IMG/VR virus record: IMGVR_UViG_3300049207_000024
Location: 1-24,729 of that record
Reading direction: 5' to 3' (one strand)
DNA from: a virus
DNA length: 24,729 nt
The translations under genes were made by a program, and so were the position numbers. The notes below the pieces were generated by a model, which did no database searches, had not been told where the DNA came from, and worked only from the letters and a program-made list of their open reading frames with translations. Below, one piece after another: positions 1-10,743 of the stretch; position 1 is the first letter of the stretch; each line of letters starts with the position of its first letter.

Positions 1-144
1 GGCCGGTGCCGTGCACATCGCGCTCGTGGCGGCAATCTCGGCCTTCACCTCGGCCAATTGCTGCTCGTACCGCCAGGCGCGCACCGCGAAGAACGGCGCG
101 AGCGCGGCGACGAGCACGAGCGCAAGCTCAATACAGCGTCTCAT
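1..144 (-). CDS. Small membrane protein, truncated by the window edge (possible lysis protein)
   Basis: Only the first 48 codons are present, and the frame stays open to the left edge. The start is ATG at 144, overlapping the end of the DUF1996 gene by 17 bases. The N-terminus is a short basic stretch (MRRC) followed by a hydrophobic segment of about 18 residues, then a charged helix-like region rich in Glu, Lys and Ala (YEQQLAEVKAEIAA). One N-terminal membrane anchor followed by a predicted coiled coil is the shape of an Rz-type inner-membrane spanin, and lysis genes often follow tail-fibre genes. That role is inference from shape and place only. The protein could be any small anchored phage protein. 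Confidence 0.6.
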   Translation of the reverse strand, partial: MRRCIELALVLVAALAPFFAVRAWRYEQQLAEVKAEIAATSAMCTAPA

Positions 145-1264
145 TGGGGGTAAGCCCGAGAAGGTGGGCGTGGCAGTTCAGCGAGGCATGCAGACAGCCC
201 TGCACCATCTGCGTCAGCACGGAGGAGTTCCAGCCGTTCCACCAGTCGCCGTGGGCGCTCAGGCCACCTGCAGCGTAGCCGAGCGCGTAGGTATCGGAGG
301 CTAGGCGCCAGTTCTCGGGTCTGGCGCTGGCGCTGACCTTGTAGCGGATGTTGTAGCTAATCTGCGGGATCATCACCGGGTGCGTACCGGGGCAGCCCGT
401 CGATGGGTTCTCGTAGGCCATGTGACTCTGGTGATTCACCGAATCGAGGTTCACGCCATCCCAGCACTGCGGGAAGAACACGATCAGCTGCACGTCTGAT
501 CCGTTGGCGCAGCCGGCGCCCGGGATCGTGGCCGAGAAGTTCTGTCCGAGCGGGCATTCCCAGCGGTAGGTGTTGCCCAGCGTCGTCGATGTGTTCGCCG
601 GGTTGCCTGCAATGATGCGCAAGTCGGCAGGCGGCACCGTCACCGCAGTCAGGTTGGCCTTGCGGTAAGCTGACTCATTCTTGTAGTAGACGATGTTTGC
701 GTAGGGGATGACCGGGAAGCCCGTCGTCGTGTCGACGACCGCCGGCACCCAGTACGCACTGCGGTTCGCGATACCACCAACGCAACTACTGCGCCCGACC
801 GTCGCAAGTTGCGTGGTCGGCGCAGTCAACTCGGAGATGTCTGAGTTTCCGAAGAAGTTGTGTAGGTGGCTCTTCTTCGGGTAGCCGACGCCGCCGACCG
901 GTGGATAGACGATTGGATCGAAGAACCCGAGATGACTGGTCGCGCATACGATGCGGAAGGCGCCGCCGTCTGGCGTCGACTCCGGTTGGATCGCGCCGCT
1001 CGTGTTGTCGCGCTTGCGCAGCGTTGAGAAGCCGTAGCTCGGCGCCGGCAACGCACCACCGTTCACCTCGAACTGGAGCGAGGGCCACATCTCGAAGACG
1101 CCGGCAGCAGCAGCCACCGGATAACTCGGTGCAGCGACGCTGTCCAGTTGCCCCATCACTCCACCGCCAAGATCGACGCTCGGAAGATTGACCGAGAAGC
1201 CGGCCACAGCACCGGCAACCGATGCAAGGAGAGCGGCGATCGTGAGCTTTCTAAGTCCGAGCAT
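128..1264 (-). CDS. Secreted DUF1996-domain protein in the tail-fibre module
   Basis: 378 residues, starting at ATG 1264 in a TGATG junction with the upstream gene, with GGGGA ahead of it. An export signal is visible: basic MLGLRK, a hydrophobic run to about residue 22, then a polar region. The body carries hallmarks I associate with DUF1996: HLHNFFGN at about 133-140, CWDGVNLDS with NHQSHMAY at about 267-284, a CPGTHP segment at about 291-296, and HGDWWNGW near residue 340. DUF1996 is known mainly from secreted fungal and actinobacterial proteins and has no firmly established activity. The conserved His and Asp residues suggest metal or carbohydrate binding (inference). It is last in a run of tail-adhesin genes, so it may act on the cell surface or be exported by a lysogen. 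Family call fairly sure, role unknown. Confidence 0.8.
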   Translation of the reverse strand: MLGLRKLTIAALLASVAGAVAGFSVNLPSVDLGGGVMGQLDSVAAPSYPVAAAAGVFEMWPSLQFEVNGGALPAPSYGFSTLRKRDNTSGAIQPESTPDGGAFRIVCATSHLGFFDPIVYPPVGGVGYPKKSHLHNFFGNSDISELTAPTTQLATVGRSSCVGGIANRSAYWVPAVVDTTTGFPVIPYANIVYYKNESAYRKANLTAVTVPPADLRIIAGNPANTSTTLGNTYRWECPLGQNFSATIPGAGCANGSDVQLIVFFPQCWDGVNLDSVNHQSHMAYENPSTGCPGTHPVMIPQISYNIRYKVSASARPENWRLASDTYALGYAAGGLSAHGDWWNGWNSSVLTQMVQGCLHASLNCHAHLLGLTPNETLY

Positions 1265-2391
1265 CAGAATCCCCGAGAGACGAAACCTTGGAGCGCGCAG
1301 CCGATCGCGGCGACACTCGTGCTTGGGTTGTTGCACCATGGGTGCATGTACACCTCTGGATCGGACACCAGCGTCCAGGTGTACTGAAGTTCCCAACTGA
1401 TGCCGCCGTCCTCCGACGTGTCGAAGTGAACCTCACCAGACGGCATGTCTCGGCGGATGCGCACGCGGCAAAGCGACGACGGGCTCGAGAACGTGTACAG
1501 CGACCCAACCGCCGTGCCGTCTTGGAACGGGCGTGCCGTGCCATTGGTGACGCGGACCGAGTGGTCCATCTCGTTGAGCGTCTGCCCGGCCGACGTGTTC
1601 ATCTTCAGCGCGATGGAGCGGACCGCCGCATCGGTGTCGGCAACCTGCATCTCCACCCAGCCGCTTGTCTCCAGCTTGGCCTGATGCGCAGAACTGCCGA
1701 ACGTCGCCTGCGTTAGCGGGTGGCACTGCGTGGTGCCGCCGCTGCCCGAGTACACGAACCCGCCAGCACCGCTTGTCAGTACGGTGAACGTCGTCACCAG
1801 CGTTGCAGCCGTTGCCGGCACCGGGAACCCGTTGGCGACCGTCACCGCAGAGAAGCTGGGGGCGAGGTTGCCGGCGTAGTCCTTCACCCGCAGCGAGTCC
1901 GTGGCCGATTGCGTGTAGGCAATCGTTGGCAGATCGCCTGGAACGAAGTTGCTAGACACCTTGACCTTGACCGTGTTGTCAGCCGCAGTGGCTGACAGGA
2001 CCGTCTTGGCCGTGGCTACAGTGCCGGCGACGACGAACTGCGCCGCACCAAGCGCGTTGGTGGACAGTTGCTTGTTGTAGGTGATGAGCACCTCATCCGG
2101 CGCTGTGATGAGGATCTGCACGCCGTGGCGCCGCGGTGCTGTGGTATCGAGTGTCAGGCCGACGACGCGCGGCGTCAGCGTGGCGCCATCGTCAGCGGCT
2201 TGGACTGTGTACTCGTAGTACGAGGCGCCGGCCGCGCTCTGTGCGCCAGAGATGTCCACTCCGTTGCGCTGAATGAAGATCTGGCCGTGATATCCAACCG
2301 GCAGCACGACACGCAGAACCTGTCCAACGAAATACGGCGTTGGCGCATTCCTGCGCTGTGCTCTACGGGCTGTAGCGATCACGGACAGCAT
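1264..2391 (-). CDS. Tail-associated protein with SWM/Ig-like repeat and C-terminal binding domain
   Basis: 375 residues, ATG at 2391 preceded by GAGGATGAACG. Three parts can be seen. An N-terminal beta-rich region (about 1-80) has a GYHGQIFIQRNG segment. A domain at about 88-190 runs from VQILITAPDEVLITYN to VKDYAGNLAPSF and resembles the SWM/SwmB repeat (Ig-like, found in large adhesins). The C-terminal part, about 205-375, is rich in short beta strands and may be a concanavalin-like or other binding fold (inference). There is no signal peptide, in contrast to the next gene. It sits between a beta-helix protein and a DUF1996 protein and shares a TGATG junction with the latter, so a virion adhesin role is likely. 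The exact target cannot be read from sequence. Confidence 0.75.
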   Translation of the reverse strand: MLSVIATARRAQRRNAPTPYFVGQVLRVVLPVGYHGQIFIQRNGVDISGAQSAAGASYYEYTVQAADDGATLTPRVVGLTLDTTAPRRHGVQILITAPDEVLITYNKQLSTNALGAAQFVVAGTVATAKTVLSATAADNTVKVKVSSNFVPGDLPTIAYTQSATDSLRVKDYAGNLAPSFSAVTVANGFPVPATAATLVTTFTVLTSGAGGFVYSGSGGTTQCHPLTQATFGSSAHQAKLETSGWVEMQVADTDAAVRSIALKMNTSAGQTLNEMDHSVRVTNGTARPFQDGTAVGSLYTFSSPSSLCRVRIRRDMPSGEVHFDTSEDGGISWELQYTWTLVSDPEVYMHPWCNNPSTSVAAIGCALQGFVSRGF

Positions 2392-2400
2392 CGTTCATCC

Positions 2401-3393
2401 TCAGCAGGAGAACAGGAAGAACGCCGGAGCACTCGACGCTACCGGAGGGGTGTCGTACTCCCACGCACCAATGTCGTAGCCGGCGCCGACGGGCCGACTT
2501 GTGCCAACGATGTCGGCCGCAGCATTCGTCGCATCCGTCGTTCCAGCATCGACCATGGCCGACGTGGACTTGATGCGGTAATCGCGCGTCGCGTCGGTGA
2601 TGTTCTCGAAGCCGGAGCCGGTCGTCGTGTTGTATGTGATCTGCGTGAAGCCGGTCGGCGGCGAAGCAACGTCGGTGCGGCACGTCGTGTAGCTGGTGGT
2701 CGCGCTGCCGCTGGATACGGCAGACACACCGAATACGGCGCAGTTTTGCAGCGTCGTCGTGCCCGATGTGTACGAGTACGCAATGCCAGCAGACGAGCCG
2801 GCCAAACCACTTGGCTTCGCGATCGTGCAGTTGTACATGCTCACATTGCCCTGGACAGAGCAAATGGAGCCGGCATTCGCCGAGCGCTTGACGATTATTG
2901 AATTCTTGACGATGCCTGCCGTTGGGGTGCTGGTGAGCACACCGTGCGATGCATCTGCCTGCCCTTCGATGATGCACTGCGAAACGACGTAGTTACCGCC
3001 GTTGTTGATGAGCAGCGCCTCACGACCGCCGTTGCCCTGAATCTGTAGCTTCGTCAGGCGCGCGTACTGCTCGCTGACGATCACGGCCGCGCCGTAGTTA
3101 TCCCCCGCGCTGATGCTGGTCCCGTTGGAGCTATTCCAACGGAGTGCGTTTGTCAGTTTGTTGGCGTGGTCTGCAAAGCTCGCCCCAGTGTTGGTGGTCA
3201 ATTCCTTGTAATGCGTGGAGTCCACCGTGCTGCCGGCAATGGTCAGGACGGTTCCGCTGGCGGTCGCATTGAACCCCGACAACATCAGGCCGCGCCAGAT
3301 GTTCCCATCCGTCACGAGGTTGGCCGGGGAGGCGTCCTCCCACGCCTGAAGCGTAGAGTAGTCGCCGCCACTGCCGATGGTGCGGTCAGTCAT
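2401..3393 (-). CDS. Right-handed beta-helix tail or adhesin protein
   Basis: 330 residues, ATG at 3393, overlapping the preceding gene by 8 bases. The N-terminus (MTDRTIGSGGDYSTLQAWED) is the typical opening of phage and bacterial proteins of the pectate-lyase-like beta-helix fold, where GGDYSTLQAW leads into the helix. The rest is short repeating strands rich in Asn, Thr, Ser and Gly (for example NNGGNYVVSQCIIEGQ, VSMYNCTIAKPSG, TLQNCAVFGVSA), matching successive rungs. It ends in a DIGAWEYD motif often seen at the C-terminus of such proteins. The fold is typical of receptor-binding or polysaccharide-degrading tailspikes. No catalytic residues can be assigned, so whether it cuts sugar or only binds is open. 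Confidence 0.8.
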   Translation of the reverse strand: MTDRTIGSGGDYSTLQAWEDASPANLVTDGNIWRGLMLSGFNATASGTVLTIAGSTVDSTHYKELTTNTGASFADHANKLTNALRWNSSNGTSISAGDNYGAAVIVSEQYARLTKLQIQGNGGREALLINNGGNYVVSQCIIEGQADASHGVLTSTPTAGIVKNSIIVKRSANAGSICSVQGNVSMYNCTIAKPSGLAGSSAGIAYSYTSGTTTLQNCAVFGVSAVSSGSATTSYTTCRTDVASPPTGFTQITYNTTTGSGFENITDATRDYRIKSTSAMVDAGTTDATNAAADIVGTSRPVGAGYDIGAWEYDTPPVASSAPAFFLFSC

Positions 3394-4198: not shown

Positions 4199-7100
4199 TC
4201 AGACCTTGATGTAGTAGGTGTCGTTGGCGTCTGCCTCGTGGACAAGGCAGTTGATGTGCGGAACCCAGTCGAGCGGCCGATAGTTCTGGTTGTTGCTGCC
4301 GCCGTCGTAGTTCCATGCCGGCAGGCCGTCGCCGCCTACCGTGATCGTGCTCACGGTCCATGCGTTGGTGAGAGGACTGCTCGCTGGCGGAGTCAGCACA
4401 TGGAGCGTGTTCCCGCTCTGGTTGATCCGCGCATAGAACGCCTTATTGACCGGGTGCCACACCCAGTTGATGCCGTTCTGCGATGGCAAGGTGCCGGACA
4501 GTGTGAGCGACGTCTGCCCGGCCGCGAAGTTGCCGAGTTGCCATGCTTGGAGGTGGCTGCCGTGCATGATCAACAGCAGTCGTGCCGAGTCATAGATGAC
4601 ACTCGACCAGTAGTCGCCGCCCTGCTGCGACGGCGACGAGAAGCTCGACGTCGTACTCCAGGCGTAGCTCGTCGGGTTCACCTGTAGATAGGCGAGTTGC
4701 GTCTGCCCGTTGTTGAACGCCGTGACGTAGTAGCGTTGAGTCGTTGGGTCGTAGGCGGCGCAACCAACGAATCCGACGCCAGCGAAGGTGCCCGTGACAG
4801 CACGCTTCGTGAGTCCAGTCGAAAGGTCAACGTAGTGCGCGGTTGGGCTTTCGAACGAGTCCGCCGTTGCACCAGCCCTGCCAACCGTAATGACGGACCC
4901 GAGCGTTCCGCGCTCAAGCGGCTGCAACTGGCCGTACTGGTGCGCTGGTGCGGCCAACTCTCCAGCAGCATTGTTCGCCGCAGTGATCGCGTAGTAGGGG
5001 CTGCCGGTAGTGTCACCGGCTGGGAACCCTGAGCCCTGGTATGAGGCCGCCGTGTAGTTCGCCCCGCCTGTGCCGTTGATGTTCGGCACGCGCTGCCATG
5101 ACTTCGTCGTCAGGTTGTTGACGATCGCGTCATAAATGCCGGCATTGTTGTGCCCGCCAGGGAGCCACTTCACACGCGCACCGAGCGGATAGCTGAAGTT
5201 CTTGACGTAGGCAGTGCCTGAGTAGCTGTTGAACAGCGCCTGCTCCTGCTCGGACGCGGTATGCGTAGAAGCACGTACCGACGAGGCCGTAGCACTCACA
5301 GTGTTAATCACCTTCAATGAGGTGTTCGTCGTGCTAGGCGGCGTGAACGGAAGCGCGGTGGCAGTCGCTGTTACACGAGGAACGAAGGCCCACTTCGGAT
5401 AGTTGTTCCAACTGCTCGATGCGTTGGCCGACCAGCTATCGGATGACGTCAGCCGCAGGTATGCGTCTGACGCCCCCGTGGCGCCGTGGTCCACGGCATA
5501 GCACAGCGCCGCGTTCGCAATCGCCCAGTAGTTGTCTCCGACCATGTTGGTCGGGTCGCTCCCGCTGGTGCCCTGGCGCGCAGTCCCTGCGACGCTGTTG
5601 CCAGCCCCGTAGCTGACTGCAAACACTTCGCCCCACGACTGATAGCACGTGGCCCCAGAGCCATCCGTCGCGAACCTGAGGCCGTAGCTCGCGCCACGCA
5701 TGCCGTCGTAGTCCTGATAGGCGCCGCTGATACCCATCCGCCCGACGATCCACTTGTAGTGGTGATCGCGAACCGCGTTCTGGTTCGTCATCGACGTGAG
5801 CGGCTTCAGGTCTGACAGCATCCCGTGCGTCATCGTGACGAAATCGAGTTGCCACGGCGGGATAGATCCAAGGTGCGGACTGCCGGCGCTGGCCGGGTAG
5901 TCCCATCCGGTGGTGTTGCCGGTCGGTCCACCGAAGTCGTAGATGTAAAGCGCACCACTCCAAACCTGAGTAGCACCAGATTGGCGGATCGTGTTCAGGC
6001 TGTCGTAGTTGGTGGACAGCAGCGTGCGGTATTCGGCAGCAATACCTCCAGCTTGCAAGTGCGTATCGCGTGCCGCCGCGACGTACTGGCCGATTGTGCG
6101 CAACTCCCAGGCGTGGCCGCGCGTCTGGTGCGTCTGGATCAAACGCGATGTTCCGTTGCCCTTGGAGTTCCCGGCCGACAGGTAGCACAACGCGGCCTGC
6201 AGCCCCATCGTGTCGTAATGCCAGCGATCACCAGTCACCAAGTAGGCTACGTAGCCACCCGAGCCATGGTGGTTGGCCTCCCACTCCAGCACACCGGCTG
6301 CCGTTCCTGGGTTGCCTCCGCCGCTCGGCCCACCCTGATCCCAATTGGCGAAGTCTGACGGCTTTGGGATGTCGTCCGTGTTCTTGGCACGAACGCAGAT
6401 TGCATACGAGCGCAGCGAAGACGCCATCGCGACCATGGCCCGATAAGCGCGGGCATCACCCGTGGCGATCCAGAAGGCGTCCGACGACGTGAGAAGGCCA
6501 ATCTGCGGTTGTTCTCCGGTGCCGCCCATGTCCTCGGCGAGAACGTTTCGCCCCATCGCCGCATAGGTGCCGTCCAGCCCGTTAAGCGTTGCCGCATCGG
6601 CCCCGGTGTAGCCCTGGTTCGTGACCATCTTCGAGGCGCGCCAGTGCGACATGTTGTACGCAGGCGGCTGAATCTGTGGGTCGGTTCCGTTGACCCAGTA
6701 CCAGCCGTCATAGCTGTTTTCCGCCTGGATGCTCGATCCCTTGTAGACAGTGAGCGAGGCGCTGCCGTTGTTCCAGACAACCGTTCCATTGAGCGTGAAC
6801 GACGGAGTGAAAGTCCGGTCCACGTTCGTCGAAGTAGCGCCGGCCCCGTTGTCCAGCATCGGGTTCTCGATGATGGCCTTCGCCCTCACCTGCCCATTCT
6901 GGTAGACCTGCGTGTACAGCCATGCGAGCATCCCAGACGAGCCGATCGGGGCTACATACTGGAACTCCGACATCTCGTGGCCCTCGTACCACTGTGTCTC
7001 TACGGCGTCGGTTTCAATGTTGAAAGTCACGGACCCATGCGCGCCGGCACTGATCGTGTAGGCTCCGGTTACGGCAGATGCGCCGATGTTGGAGCGCGTA

Positions 7101-7423
7101 ATGGCAGTCCCGCTCGGCGGTGTCCCGTTGGTGACGCTCACCGCCGCAGAGGGCGACATTGAGGCACGGCCGGTGATGAACGCATGGCGCACATAGCCAC
7201 TCGGCCAGTGGGCCGTGACATCGACCTGATAGTTCGTCAGGTCAGTCGCCACTGACATCGTTTCACCGTCCGCGAACGTCAAGCCGACCGGTGGAAACGG
7301 GTACGTGCTATTCGCCGCAGTAGTGGTCAGCGTGAACGACGTTAATTCCGAGCCACCACCACCGCCGCCGGACGACACCACCCGGCGCTTCTGCCGCATC
7401 GGCAAGAGCGAGCCGAGAATCAT
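4199..7423 (-). CDS. Large candidate polysaccharide-degrading tail protein (RIFT-barrel/lyase-like)
   Basis: 1074 residues, ATG at 7423 in a TGATG junction with the tail-fibre gene; an in-frame GTG lies one codon upstream. After a basic start and a Gly-rich linker (about 19-24), residues about 27-130 have the VTAHWPSGYVRHA pattern I associate with the N-terminal RIFT-barrel domain of PcRGLX/YetA-like exo-rhamnogalacturonan lyases. A helical middle (about 280-650) carries aromatic and His-rich segments such as WEANHHGSGGYVAYL (about 378) and RGHAWELRTIGQY, like an alpha-toroid. From about 725 a propeller- or Kelch-like region follows (GARVKWLPGGHNNAG, AAYDPTTQRYYV). Together this suggests a capsule or exopolysaccharide depolymerase. 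Being a structural protein is certain only from context; the enzyme call is inference. Confidence 0.8.
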   Translation of the reverse strand: MILGSLLPMRQKRRVVSSGGGGGGSELTSFTLTTTAANSTYPFPPVGLTFADGETMSVATDLTNYQVDVTAHWPSGYVRHAFITGRASMSPSAAVSVTNGTPPSGTAITRSNIGASAVTGAYTISAGAHGSVTFNIETDAVETQWYEGHEMSEFQYVAPIGSSGMLAWLYTQVYQNGQVRAKAIIENPMLDNGAGATSTNVDRTFTPSFTLNGTVVWNNGSASLTVYKGSSIQAENSYDGWYWVNGTDPQIQPPAYNMSHWRASKMVTNQGYTGADAATLNGLDGTYAAMGRNVLAEDMGGTGEQPQIGLLTSSDAFWIATGDARAYRAMVAMASSLRSYAICVRAKNTDDIPKPSDFANWDQGGPSGGGNPGTAAGVLEWEANHHGSGGYVAYLVTGDRWHYDTMGLQAALCYLSAGNSKGNGTSRLIQTHQTRGHAWELRTIGQYVAAARDTHLQAGGIAAEYRTLLSTNYDSLNTIRQSGATQVWSGALYIYDFGGPTGNTTGWDYPASAGSPHLGSIPPWQLDFVTMTHGMLSDLKPLTSMTNQNAVRDHHYKWIVGRMGISGAYQDYDGMRGASYGLRFATDGSGATCYQSWGEVFAVSYGAGNSVAGTARQGTSGSDPTNMVGDNYWAIANAALCYAVDHGATGASDAYLRLTSSDSWSANASSSWNNYPKWAFVPRVTATATALPFTPPSTTNTSLKVINTVSATASSVRASTHTASEQEQALFNSYSGTAYVKNFSYPLGARVKWLPGGHNNAGIYDAIVNNLTTKSWQRVPNINGTGGANYTAASYQGSGFPAGDTTGSPYYAITAANNAAGELAAPAHQYGQLQPLERGTLGSVITVGRAGATADSFESPTAHYVDLSTGLTKRAVTGTFAGVGFVGCAAYDPTTQRYYVTAFNNGQTQLAYLQVNPTSYAWSTTSSFSSPSQQGGDYWSSVIYDSARLLLIMHGSHLQAWQLGNFAAGQTSLTLSGTLPSQNGINWVWHPVNKAFYARINQSGNTLHVLTPPASSPLTNAWTVSTITVGGDGLPAWNYDGGSNNQNYRPLDWVPHINCLVHEADANDTYYIKV

Positions 7424-10290
7424 CACGGCCTCATCGTGCCGATTAGGTACACCTTAAGTCCGGCCCCTGCCACCGTACTGCCGACCTGATCGATGTCGAT
7501 CGTGATTTCGGCGTCATCGGCCAGCGCGGTATCGGTGATACCGGCAGCGGTCGCTGCTGTGGTGCTGGTCTTCTCGGTGGCGTCGATCGACAGCTTGTTA
7601 GTCGTCATGATCGTGCTACCGCCCTCGTTGATGTCAACGATGAGGGTCGCTCCCGTCGGCGCGGTCGTCACGCTGGCGCGCACCGCCGTCAGCGTCATGG
7701 CGTACGGCATGCGGAAGGTAACCTTCGCCGTGCCGGTGGTCAGTGCCGTTGTCTCGTCGCCTACAGCAACAGCCAGCACCGTCTTCTGCACGAGCGGCAG
7801 GCCACTCGCGCGGGAATAGTTGGTGACACGCCAGTTGCCAGAGCCAGAAGACGTTACCCAGAACGCATCGTCAGCAGCAGCCGTGATATCGGCGCCGCCC
7901 GGCAGGTTCATGCTCGTGGCGTTGTACGTCAGCGTGAAGGCGCCGGTAGCGATCGCGTACTTGGTGATGCCCGCCGCGACAGTGTCGAAGGCAGAGATTG
8001 CCGACGTACCACTGATCGAAATCTTCGAGCCGGCCAGCGCGCCAATGTTGGTTGTCGCCGACGAGGCAATCGCGCTCGTGGCGCCAAGGTCCAGCGGCAG
8101 AGCCCATGACGGATTGGCGGCCGATCCGCCGCTTTGGAGGTAGTACTTGCTGGACGCAGCAGCGGCAAGTCGCGTCCACGTCGTGGCGTTGCGGTACAGG
8201 ACATCGCCCTGAGATGCGCCCGTGAACGCATCGACGGACCACACCGTGCCGGAGCCCGAAACGGTGACGTCGCCCTTGTCGCCATCGCTGATGCCGCCGC
8301 CAGCGCCGTCGTTCAGCAGATGCCACACCGCTGCGCCAGCCGCGTTGCTCTCGCAGATGTAGGCTGCGTTGCCGGTGACGTTCAGCCAGAACGATCCGGG
8401 GCCGTAGCCGTCCGCGATGTCGTCGGTGACGGCCGGCGCCGCGGTGGCGTCGTACTTGTTCAGGTAGCCGCCGTCGCCGTACAGGTTGTACGCCGTGCCG
8501 TCATCCCGAATCGTCAGGTGCAGTTTGCCGTTAGCTTGGATGACAAGCACATGCGCGGCGGTCGTCCCGGTCGCCATGTTGAAACACGACGGCATCGTCA
8601 GTTGATGCGGCGCAGAGTCCGTGTTCGTGACGATGAGCTGGAACCACTTGTTGGCAGTGCCTGCCGCCGTGCTAAACGTGAACGTCGAATCTGCGCTGAT
8701 CGACTTGGTGTTAATGACCTTCGTCGTATCGATTACCAGCGCGCCCATGGCGTTGGCAGTCAGAATCTCAGCGCCGTCCTGAGTCGTGATCCCGGAGAAG
8801 GTAGGAGTCGTGATCGTCGGCGAGGTGGCGAAGACGGCGGCCCCAGTCCCGGTCTCATCGGTCAGCGCGGAGCGCAGGTTCGCGCTGGAAGGCGTCGCAA
8901 GGAACGTCGCAACGCCAGCGCCGAGCCCGGAAACACCGGTTGAAATCGGCAGGCCAGTCGCGTTCGTCAGGGTTGCAGCCGACGGCGTGCCGAGGTTCGG
9001 CGTCGTCAGGGTTGGCGATGTCGCGAACACCGCCGCGCCTGAGCCGGTCTCATCCGTCAGGGCCGCAGCGAGGTTGGCACTCGACGGGGTGGCAAGGAAG
9101 GTGGCAACGTTGGTGCCGAGACCTGACACGCCAGTCGAGACAGGCAAGCCGGTGCAGTTCGTCAGGGTGCCGCTGGTCGGCGTACCGAGAACCGGAGTGA
9201 CGAGCGTCGGGGACGTGGCAAACACCGCAGCGCCCGTGCCGGTCTCGTCGGTCAAAGCCGTGCGAAGGTTGGCACTGGATGGGGTAGCGAGGAAGGCCGC
9301 AACACCCGTCCCGAGGCCACCGACCCCGGTGCTGATCGGAAGACCCGTGCAGTTCGTGAGCGTGCCGGCCGCCGGGGTGCCGATGTCAGGAGCAACTAGC
9401 GCGGCGCCAGTCGCCCGGACAAGCCCGCCAGTGCCGGTCGAAGCCGCGCCGCCCAGCGTGTCCACCATCGCCGCGACGGTGGCGTCATCCAGCACCGTGG
9501 CCGCAGCAGCCGTGATACCGTGGGTGCCGGAGGTGACGCCAGCGTGGGCCGCAACAGCGCCGGCCGCCTCGAAATGCGTCGTACCCAGCGCGTTGACGAA
9601 CTGGGTGCCGTTGTGGCGGATGACGTGGCCTGACGCCGGGGTCGTGATCGCCACGTCCGCCAAGTCGTCGAGGCTGACGGATCCACCGCCCGTGGCGTCC
9701 GTGTCGTTCTGCCAGTTGGTGCCGTTGTACTTGAGCACCTGACCCAGCGTCGGCGACGTGACGACTACATCGGTCAGCCCGTCGAGGGTCGTCGAACCAC
9801 CACCGCCGCCGGCCGCGTCGATCGTCGTGCCGGTGATGGTCAGGTTTGTCCCGAGTGTCAGATGCTCGTACCTGCCCGCCGAGTCATCCCAGAACAGGAG
9901 CCGATCCGCGTTGGGGTCGGTCAGGTCAGCGATCTGCTGCAGTTGCGGGTCAAACGCCTGAACGTCGGAGCCGACATCCAGCACCTCCGCTGCCAGCATC
10001 GTCACGAAAACCTGTTTCGTGCCGGCGCTGAAGTTGACCGCAGCATTGCTGTTGCTGCTGGCGACCACCGTCGTCCGGGTCAGCGTGTTGGCTGACGAGT
10101 ATGTGCCAGTGCCGACTTCCCACTCATCGGCGGTCGTGTGCTTGATCCGATAGGCGAAGGTGTCACTGACCTGAACGCCAGCAGCCTGCGGCGTCCTGTG
10201 CCCTTCAAGGGCGGTCGTGCTGAGAGTGAAGGCGCCCGTGCCGGTGGACGTGGACGTGGTGCCGCATGCATCGGCGCGGAATTGAGCCAT
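7423..10290 (-). CDS. Tail fibre protein with tandem 65-residue repeats
   Basis: 955 residues, ATG at 10290 preceded by AAAGGGGA at good spacing. The N-terminus (MAQFRADACGTTSTSTGTGAF) is a typical phage-fibre start and may attach to the virion. A Gly linker lies near residue 160, then two related segments (LDGLTDVVVTSPTLGQVLKYN and a similar LDDLADVAI copy). Residues about 304-498 are three tandem 65-residue repeats of the GTPxxGTLTNCTGLPIS...TDETGTGAAVFATSPT type. The last 120 residues (FRMPYAMTLTAVRASV to AGAGLKVYLIG) form a conserved C-terminal domain seen in many phage structural proteins. It is the first gene of the host-interaction block and is translationally coupled to the lyase-like gene. 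There is no endosialidase or intramolecular chaperone motif that I can see. Confidence 0.9.
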   Translation of the reverse strand: MAQFRADACGTTSTSTGTGAFTLSTTALEGHRTPQAAGVQVSDTFAYRIKHTTADEWEVGTGTYSSANTLTRTTVVASSNSNAAVNFSAGTKQVFVTMLAAEVLDVGSDVQAFDPQLQQIADLTDPNADRLLFWDDSAGRYEHLTLGTNLTITGTTIDAAGGGGGSTTLDGLTDVVVTSPTLGQVLKYNGTNWQNDTDATGGGSVSLDDLADVAITTPASGHVIRHNGTQFVNALGTTHFEAAGAVAAHAGVTSGTHGITAAAATVLDDATVAAMVDTLGGAASTGTGGLVRATGAALVAPDIGTPAAGTLTNCTGLPISTGVGGLGTGVAAFLATPSSANLRTALTDETGTGAAVFATSPTLVTPVLGTPTSGTLTNCTGLPVSTGVSGLGTNVATFLATPSSANLAAALTDETGSGAAVFATSPTLTTPNLGTPSAATLTNATGLPISTGVSGLGAGVATFLATPSSANLRSALTDETGTGAAVFATSPTITTPTFSGITTQDGAEILTANAMGALVIDTTKVINTKSISADSTFTFSTAAGTANKWFQLIVTNTDSAPHQLTMPSCFNMATGTTAAHVLVIQANGKLHLTIRDDGTAYNLYGDGGYLNKYDATAAPAVTDDIADGYGPGSFWLNVTGNAAYICESNAAGAAVWHLLNDGAGGGISDGDKGDVTVSGSGTVWSVDAFTGASQGDVLYRNATTWTRLAAAASSKYYLQSGGSAANPSWALPLDLGATSAIASSATTNIGALAGSKISISGTSAISAFDTVAAGITKYAIATGAFTLTYNATSMNLPGGADITAAADDAFWVTSSGSGNWRVTNYSRASGLPLVQKTVLAVAVGDETTALTTGTAKVTFRMPYAMTLTAVRASVTTAPTGATLIVDINEGGSTIMTTNKLSIDATEKTSTTAATAAGITDTALADDAEITIDIDQVGSTVAGAGLKVYLIGTMRP
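8797..9381 (-). repeat. Three tandem 195-bp coding repeats in the tail fibre
   Basis: Three consecutive units of 65 codons, reading from 9381 downward, encode near-identical blocks. They differ at a few positions only (TNCTGLPIS, TNCTGLPVS, TNATGLPIS; ANLRTAL, ANLAAAL, ANLRSAL). The DNA copies differ at many third positions, so they are not very recent duplications, or they have been diversified at synonymous sites. Such repeats usually extend the shaft of the fibre and are hot spots for recombination between phages. Confidence 0.9.
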
Positions 10291-10395
10291 GGCTTCCCCT
10301 TTGGGGCGGGGCCATGGAACAGGTCACAGGTGCTTGCCCCACCATCCAGGGGCGATGGTTCCGGGATGGCGCTGACAAATTAAGGGTGGAACCTG
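10291..10395. other. 105-bp intergenic gap ahead of the tail fibre
   Basis: This is one of the few real gaps in the minus-strand gene run. It holds the tail-fibre ribosome-binding site (AAAGGGGA on the minus strand just before ATG 10290) and a GGTTCC/GGAACC inverted repeat with a long spacer (about 10357-10393). I see no convincing terminator, since there is no T-run, and no clear -35/-10 pair. A late promoter here is possible but not supported by a recognisable motif. Confidence 0.4.
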
Positions 10396-10743
10396 TCAGC
10401 CGGCCGGCTCGTCAATGTCTGCGGCCCATGATTCGATCACCTCAACCGCCTTACGGAAGATGTCGGGCGACTCCCATGTGTAGTAATTCACCTGACAGTC
10501 AACAGGTCCGCGATTGATGTAGTGCTGTCGGCTTGGGCCAAGGGCATACGAGTAGATCGTCAGCCCGCACGGTTCATCGAAGCCATCCTTGCCGTCCAGG
10601 TAGTCCCAAATGGCCGGGAACTGGAGTTCGCACCACCCTTCGGACGACTTGCCACTGATACCTTCCGGAGTGGCTGAAAGCTTCTTGTACGCAGCCAGGA
10701 GCGTCCGGCGCACGTCTGCCATGCTGAACTTGGATTGGATCAT
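10396..10743 (-). CDS. Hypothetical phage protein
   Basis: 115 residues, starting at ATG 10743 in a four-base ATGA overlap with the upstream gene; the longer reading frame upstream is an overlap artefact. Visible segments are a helical N-terminus (MADVRRTLLAAYKKL), a WCELQFPAIWDYLDG stretch (about 44-58), and an aromatic region with IYSYALGPSRQHYINRG (about 69-85), then an acidic helical end (VEVIESWAADIDEPAG). I do not recognise the family. It is the last gene of the small coupled block before the tail fibre. Confidence 0.7.
   Translation of the reverse strand: MIQSKFSMADVRRTLLAAYKKLSATPEGISGKSSEGWCELQFPAIWDYLDGKDGFDEPCGLTIYSYALGPSRQHYINRGPVDCQVNYYTWESPDIFRKAVEVIESWAADIDEPAG

Follow-up and report, generated by a model that had tools for sequence, protein, structure and literature searches.

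The fungal literature on DUF1996 proteins is split. The Vlp1-3 proteins of Beauveria bassiana are reported to be vacuolar and to lack signal peptides, and fungal members of the family are tied to stress and metal tolerance, both of which are altered by deletions (PMC4738358). On the other side, CBM1, CBM6 and WSC domains are found together with the fungal domain, and an association with polysaccharide degradation has been proposed (PMC7679414). In our literature search, no DUF1996 protein had a reported activity, binding partner or structure, and none of the open papers that mention the family deals with phages, judging by title or abstract. Two exported phage proteins provide a second point of comparison. 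In unrelated FhuA phages, the Cor cassette comes directly after the tail fibre cluster (PMC13164509). The T5 receptor is blocked by Llp, which is believed also to keep the progeny from adsorbing to lysed fragments (PMC9586334). Here we describe a phage-borne, exported DUF1996 protein in a late-operon setting, which appears to be unreported in the searchable literature.

The analysed stretch of DNA (hereafter, the window) is an IMG/VR virus record of 24,729 bp that contains a GpA terminase gene. Its early region comprises a Phage_CP76 CII-type regulator, a YdaS-type gene and a repressor-like HTH gene, hence the phage looks temperate. The virus record, the terminase and the CII-type and YdaS-type genes bear out the original prediction that the DUF1996 gene is carried by a phage. 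The gene itself (128..1264, minus strand; start codon ATG at 1264, last base of the stop codon at 128) encodes 378 amino acids, and a Pfam profile search matched the protein to PF09362 over the complete profile (positions 1-237 of 237; E 1.4e-38, 133.7 bits at a gathering cut-off of 27), confirming the family membership for which such a search had been proposed. Chance similarity to DUF1996 was considered and ruled out by this E-value.

The domain spans residues 116-345 (230..919, minus strand) and carries the signatures DPIVYP, HLHNFFG, YWVP, CP and HGDWWNGW. The window protein thereby shares DPIXXP, HXHX3G, YWXP, CP and HXDX3GW with the described PF09362 members, that is, Vlp1-3 and the actinobacterial and betaproteobacterial secreted proteins or lipoproteins. 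The test for the DPIXXP head and the HXDX3GW-type signature returned DPIVYP at 116-121 and HGDWWNGW at 338-345; HLHNFFGN (133-140) and NHQSHMAY (277-284) were located as well, so that all three segments named in the original prediction are in place, along with the signal peptide. The strict spacing formula of PMC4738358, which describes 14 fungal proteins and is distinct from the Pfam criterion, does not fit the window protein: the spacer from P to HXH is longer, N167 stands for D, and the middle part is shorter. Compared with the fungal proteins, the window protein is phage-encoded, has a signal peptide and an operon-like late setting, and carries N for D before xSxYW.

The predicted Sec signal peptide (residues 1 to approximately 22, MLGLRKLTIAALLASVAGAVAG; 1199..1264, minus strand) is positively charged at its start and contains a hydrophobic run and, around the cleavage site, small residues, but no lipobox cysteine; here and below, signal peptides were called by a home-made heuristic. 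It is kept in relatives at 35-56% identity (L001, L007, L010, L013, L017-L020 and L029), which supports the predicted export. Searches of PHROGs and NCBIfam with the protein gave no match, and searches of PDB by sequence and by profile gave nothing meaningful. As there is no PHROG match, exported phage proteins of this type escape phage family libraries.

Like Cor and Llp (T1, phi80, HK022, N15, T5), the window protein is predicted to be an exported phage protein whose gene lies directly downstream of tail-fibre-type genes, and the genetic logic of its placement resembles theirs. However, it is outside that family: the receptor that Cor and Llp block is a protein and both are small lipoproteins, whereas the window protein, with 378 residues and no Cys lipobox, is soluble, of another family and probably aimed at a glycan. 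It shares an adhesin neighbourhood and a presumed glycan target with the tail-associated polysaccharide depolymerases, but these are virion parts, characterised by the lack of a signal peptide and by a virion attachment domain, whereas in the window protein a signal peptide is predicted and a virion domain is missing. Another phage DUF1996 protein with a signal peptide, at 40% identity, is UOF76731.1 of Siphoviridae sp. ctgwJ031 (MW202423.1). It differs in being annotated as hypothetical and in lying outside any recognisable adhesin or lysis block.

Directly upstream of the DUF1996 gene lies gene A (1264..2391, minus strand), whose 375-aa product had no match in Pfam, PHROG or NCBIfam and none in a search against phages; it is called adhesin-like because of its composition and position. 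Further upstream, again on the minus strand, are a gene for a 330-aa, probably beta-helical protein with a choice-of-anchor Q domain (2401..3393; NF041518, E 1.5e-8), two small ORFs, a gene for a 1075-aa protein of the tail/adhesin block (4199..7426; no family match, 84% nucleotide identity to L008 and L010), and a gene for a 955-aa repetitive tail-fibre-type protein (7423..10290), whose tblastn matches in Synechococcus, Rhizobium and other phages are annotated as tail fibre proteins. In L002 and L006, a 215-aa protein takes the place of the choice-of-anchor Q protein. The position just after adhesin and tail-fibre-type genes, as originally predicted, is thus supported by the overlap with gene A and by the tail-fibre-type protein further upstream. 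The DUF1996 gene may not be the last one of the block, as was originally stated, since it is followed by a short gene for a membrane protein, of which the window contains the 5' part up to its edge (1..144, minus strand). In L010 the genes that follow the homologue of this membrane-protein gene include a TIGR02594/CHAP endolysin, and therefore the window probably runs into a lysis cassette too.

The place between the fibre genes and, probably, the lysis genes, together with the signal peptide, suggests action on host-surface sugars late in infection. The reading that we prefer, and to which we give roughly even chances, is that of a late, exported, glycan-acting protein involved in receptor removal or masking, in matrix loosening at lysis, or in both. 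Taken separately, the first of these roles is a tentative possibility and the second a still more tentative one.

The stop codon of gene A and the start codon of the DUF1996 gene share one base (TGATG). The same one-base overlap is seen in L007, L010, L013 and L014, and persists at protein identities as low as 58%. The two genes also form a putative recombination module of approximately 2.4 kb (13..2430, minus strand) that is 97.4-97.5% identical to L002-L004, with zero coding differences in the DUF1996 gene between the window and L002. Its edge is sharp and mosaic: between 2430 and 7352 blastn finds no match in L002 and L003, and from 7352 on similarity is back at 89-91%. Thus, gene A and the DUF1996 gene appear to be exchanged together between phages.

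This coupling bears on the possibility of a lysogenic-conversion (moron) gene, where a prophage would export the DUF1996 protein and alter the surface, stress tolerance or metal tolerance of the lysogen, to the benefit of the host. The lysogeny-type control region with its CII-like, YdaS-like and HTH repressor-like genes would agree with such a role, as would the tolerance phenotypes of the fungal deletions and the presence of cellular copies in many free-living bacteria. However, the overlap with the upstream gene leaves no intergenic room for a promoter of its own, and most relatives share the operon-like setting, so we regard lysogenic conversion as unlikely. In 42 of 50 viral loci, at most 60 nt separate the DUF1996 start from the preceding gene on the same strand, or the two overlap, often by four bases or one base; this count is approximate, as the genes were found by a home-made caller and the starts chosen by the signal-peptide heuristic. 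These tight junctions, with the one-base overlap in the window, do not support the lysogen-exported option of the original prediction.

DUF1996 was found in approximately 80 IMG/VR loci in two scans, and the non-redundant set comprised 59 loci, including the window and one INPHARED record; five INPHARED records have a match, just one of which looks like a genuine complete phage genome. Subject to the same approximations, 51 of the 54 non-redundant viral loci with a testable start have a predicted signal peptide (the exceptions are L021, L024 and L160), and four have a lipobox-like site. If the protein, processed or not, were a virion component on the tail tip, a receptor-binding or depolymerase subunit, its gene could be expected to adjoin the fibre genes and to be co-inherited with an adhesin-like gene, as is observed. 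But the signal peptide is near-universal in the viral copies, the eight conserved cysteines are typical of an oxidising compartment, and a search of 56 viral DUF1996 proteins found no tail-attachment or other virion domain. The signal peptide and this negative domain search together disfavour the virion-protein reading, which we consider improbable. The tail association suggested in the original prediction is hence not supported, and its other option, release or export in place of assembly, is favoured.

Tallies of PHROG and Pfam hits among the neighbours of DUF1996 were too scattered to place lysis genes at each locus, and endolysins were instead sought per contig (PF00959, PF00182, PF05838, PF01510 and PF05257 in 40 contigs). 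An above-cut-off endolysin was present in 18 contigs, and in 15 of these it lies less than 3 kb from the DUF1996 gene, while 4.1 would be expected and none of 100,000 simulations with random placement reached 15; the test assumes uniform placement, and the contigs are fragments, the related ones among them not being fully independent. If one of the two contigs of the window's clade is dropped, the count becomes 14 of 17. The three contigs with a more distant endolysin are G008, G032 and G039. The operon-like setting, the closeness to endolysins, and the overlap and shared module with gene A make a late-expressed, exported protein more likely than a virion component or a lysogenic-conversion product.

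The same closeness, with the clustering with small membrane-protein genes and the TIGR02594 endolysin downstream in L010, would also fit a lysis accessory without glycan activity, that is, an exported periplasmic protein, for example a metal- or outer-membrane-binding one, that contributes to envelope disruption as one product of the lysis cassette. In the window's clade, however, the tight partner of the DUF1996 gene is the adhesin-like gene and not a lysis gene; besides, the cellular and fungal proteins have no known lysis role, and the CBM fusions point to sugars. We therefore consider the lysis accessory rather unlikely, although it is the strongest of the alternatives. The neighbourhood also weighs against the glycan-acting reading to some extent. 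The adhesin-like gene is directly upstream only in the window's clade, its place being taken elsewhere by another fibre gene, a holin-like gene or an unassigned one, and some viral copies (L021, L024 and L138) appear to lie near replication genes. In favour of a glycan target, upstream neighbours in the viral loci include carbohydrate-esterase types (GDSL/SASA) and a pectate-lyase-like protein.

The best 80 genome matches are mostly from Betaproteobacteria (Hydrogenophaga, Rhizobacter, Methylotenera) and Actinomycetota. On the maximum-likelihood tree of 131 sequences, built by a quick method with SH-aLRT support only, the viral/cellular label switches at least 18 times, 9 of the switches being forced by well-supported branches, although some of the "cellular" copies could be prophages; the window's clade has six members, all viral. 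Such traffic, with at least 9 and up to 18 switches between cells and viruses, is what one would see if the gene were a passenger acquired from hosts with no role for the phage. In this case, the gene would hardly remain intact in the compared relatives, recur in the same genomic position and spread as a module. The dN/dS ratio of the window gene is 0.02 against L005, 0.11 against L006, 0.17 against L007, 0.19 against L008 and 0.25 against L010, and thus the gene is maintained by purifying selection; we regard the passenger explanation as very improbable.

The glycan-acting reading draws on the domain company of the cellular and fungal relatives. Additional domains in the 75 cellular DUF1996 proteins are DUF4124 (n = 9), RTX repeats (n = 4) and CBM6 (n = 2), as well as one each of CBM35, CBM35_2, a CBM13-like domain and alpha-1,3-glucanase D1; these are domain counts, and the proteins may overlap. 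Since the protein is predicted to be exported, is linked to adhesin or lysis genes and has relatives with CBMs, we consider late action on a glycan of the envelope or matrix most likely. On the other hand, the CBM fusions are few among the 75 proteins, and the vacuolar location and the stress and metal link of the fungal members (PMC4738358) speak against a glycan target.

In the alignment of the 131 sequences, D116, Y171, Y193, P212, C237, C252, C267, G270, H281 and C291 are invariant, and R104, C107, H133, H135, C161, N167, W172, K195, W268, D274, H278, H295, D324, H338, D340, W345, C357 and C364 are nearly so. These positions include six His, four Asp, two Tyr, one Lys and eight Cys residues. 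With so many conserved acid/base residues and cysteines, a secreted enzyme seems more likely than a lectin, and the His, Asp, Tyr and Cys residues are compatible with a His/Asp pocket. Metal or sugar binding by the domain is a guess.

Under the glycan-acting reading, a soluble, Cys-rich protein would be made late, along with the phage adhesins, and exported through Sec. Its DUF1996 domain would then target a glycan of the host surface or the matrix, by catalysis more likely than by lectin binding; the site of action would be either the periplasm or, following release, the cell surface. If the receptor of the co-inherited adhesin were stripped or masked in this way, the progeny would not stick to debris and sister phages would be excluded; in addition or alternatively, the extracellular matrix would be loosened as the cell lyses. 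A bolder, rather doubtful proposal is that DUF1996 constitutes a new class of secreted glycan-active enzymes, repeatedly taken up by phages of exopolysaccharide-forming bacteria as a receptor-destroying companion of the adhesin. If so, it would be a phage counterpart of a viral neuraminidase, removing the sugar of the adhesin with which it is inherited as a single module, and a glycan-directed analogue of the Cor/Llp strategy. DUF1996 is widespread (fungi, Actinomycetota, Betaproteobacteria) and we found no established activity for it; the linkage to adhesins and endolysins in phages narrows the hunt for a substrate to the host envelope, and deletion of the phage gene makes the function testable.

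Several further features were observed in the relatives. A domain of approximately 60 amino acids with the consensus FSWVPCAEEGQTCTVPGTSKVRYGAATKWVTKTVVTGSVTCSNATFGSDPAPGVVKECEVK, in up to three repeats, lies N-terminal to DUF1996 (L015, L017-L020, L117-L119, L122, L123 and others). It is present in 32 viral and cellular loci and absent from the window, and in the viral proteins it had no Pfam match. In L019, a viral contig of 322 kb, the DUF1996 gene is followed by DUF1800 and DUF1501 genes (6919-10478). The DUF1800/DUF1501 pair is usual in bacteria, so the record could represent either a very large phage or a bacterial contig that was misclassified. Finally, in two unrelated phage groups, genes for exported PEP-CTERM (exosortase-sorted) proteins (PF07589, TIGR02595) lie antisense to, and directly downstream of, the DUF1996 gene (minus strand; L002:7208-7891, L006:6891-7592, L007 at approximately 7196-7990 and L136:6858-7688; also the L138 contig near 24878). 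Work cited in PMC12642866 links PEP-CTERM proteins to exopolysaccharide and floc formation.
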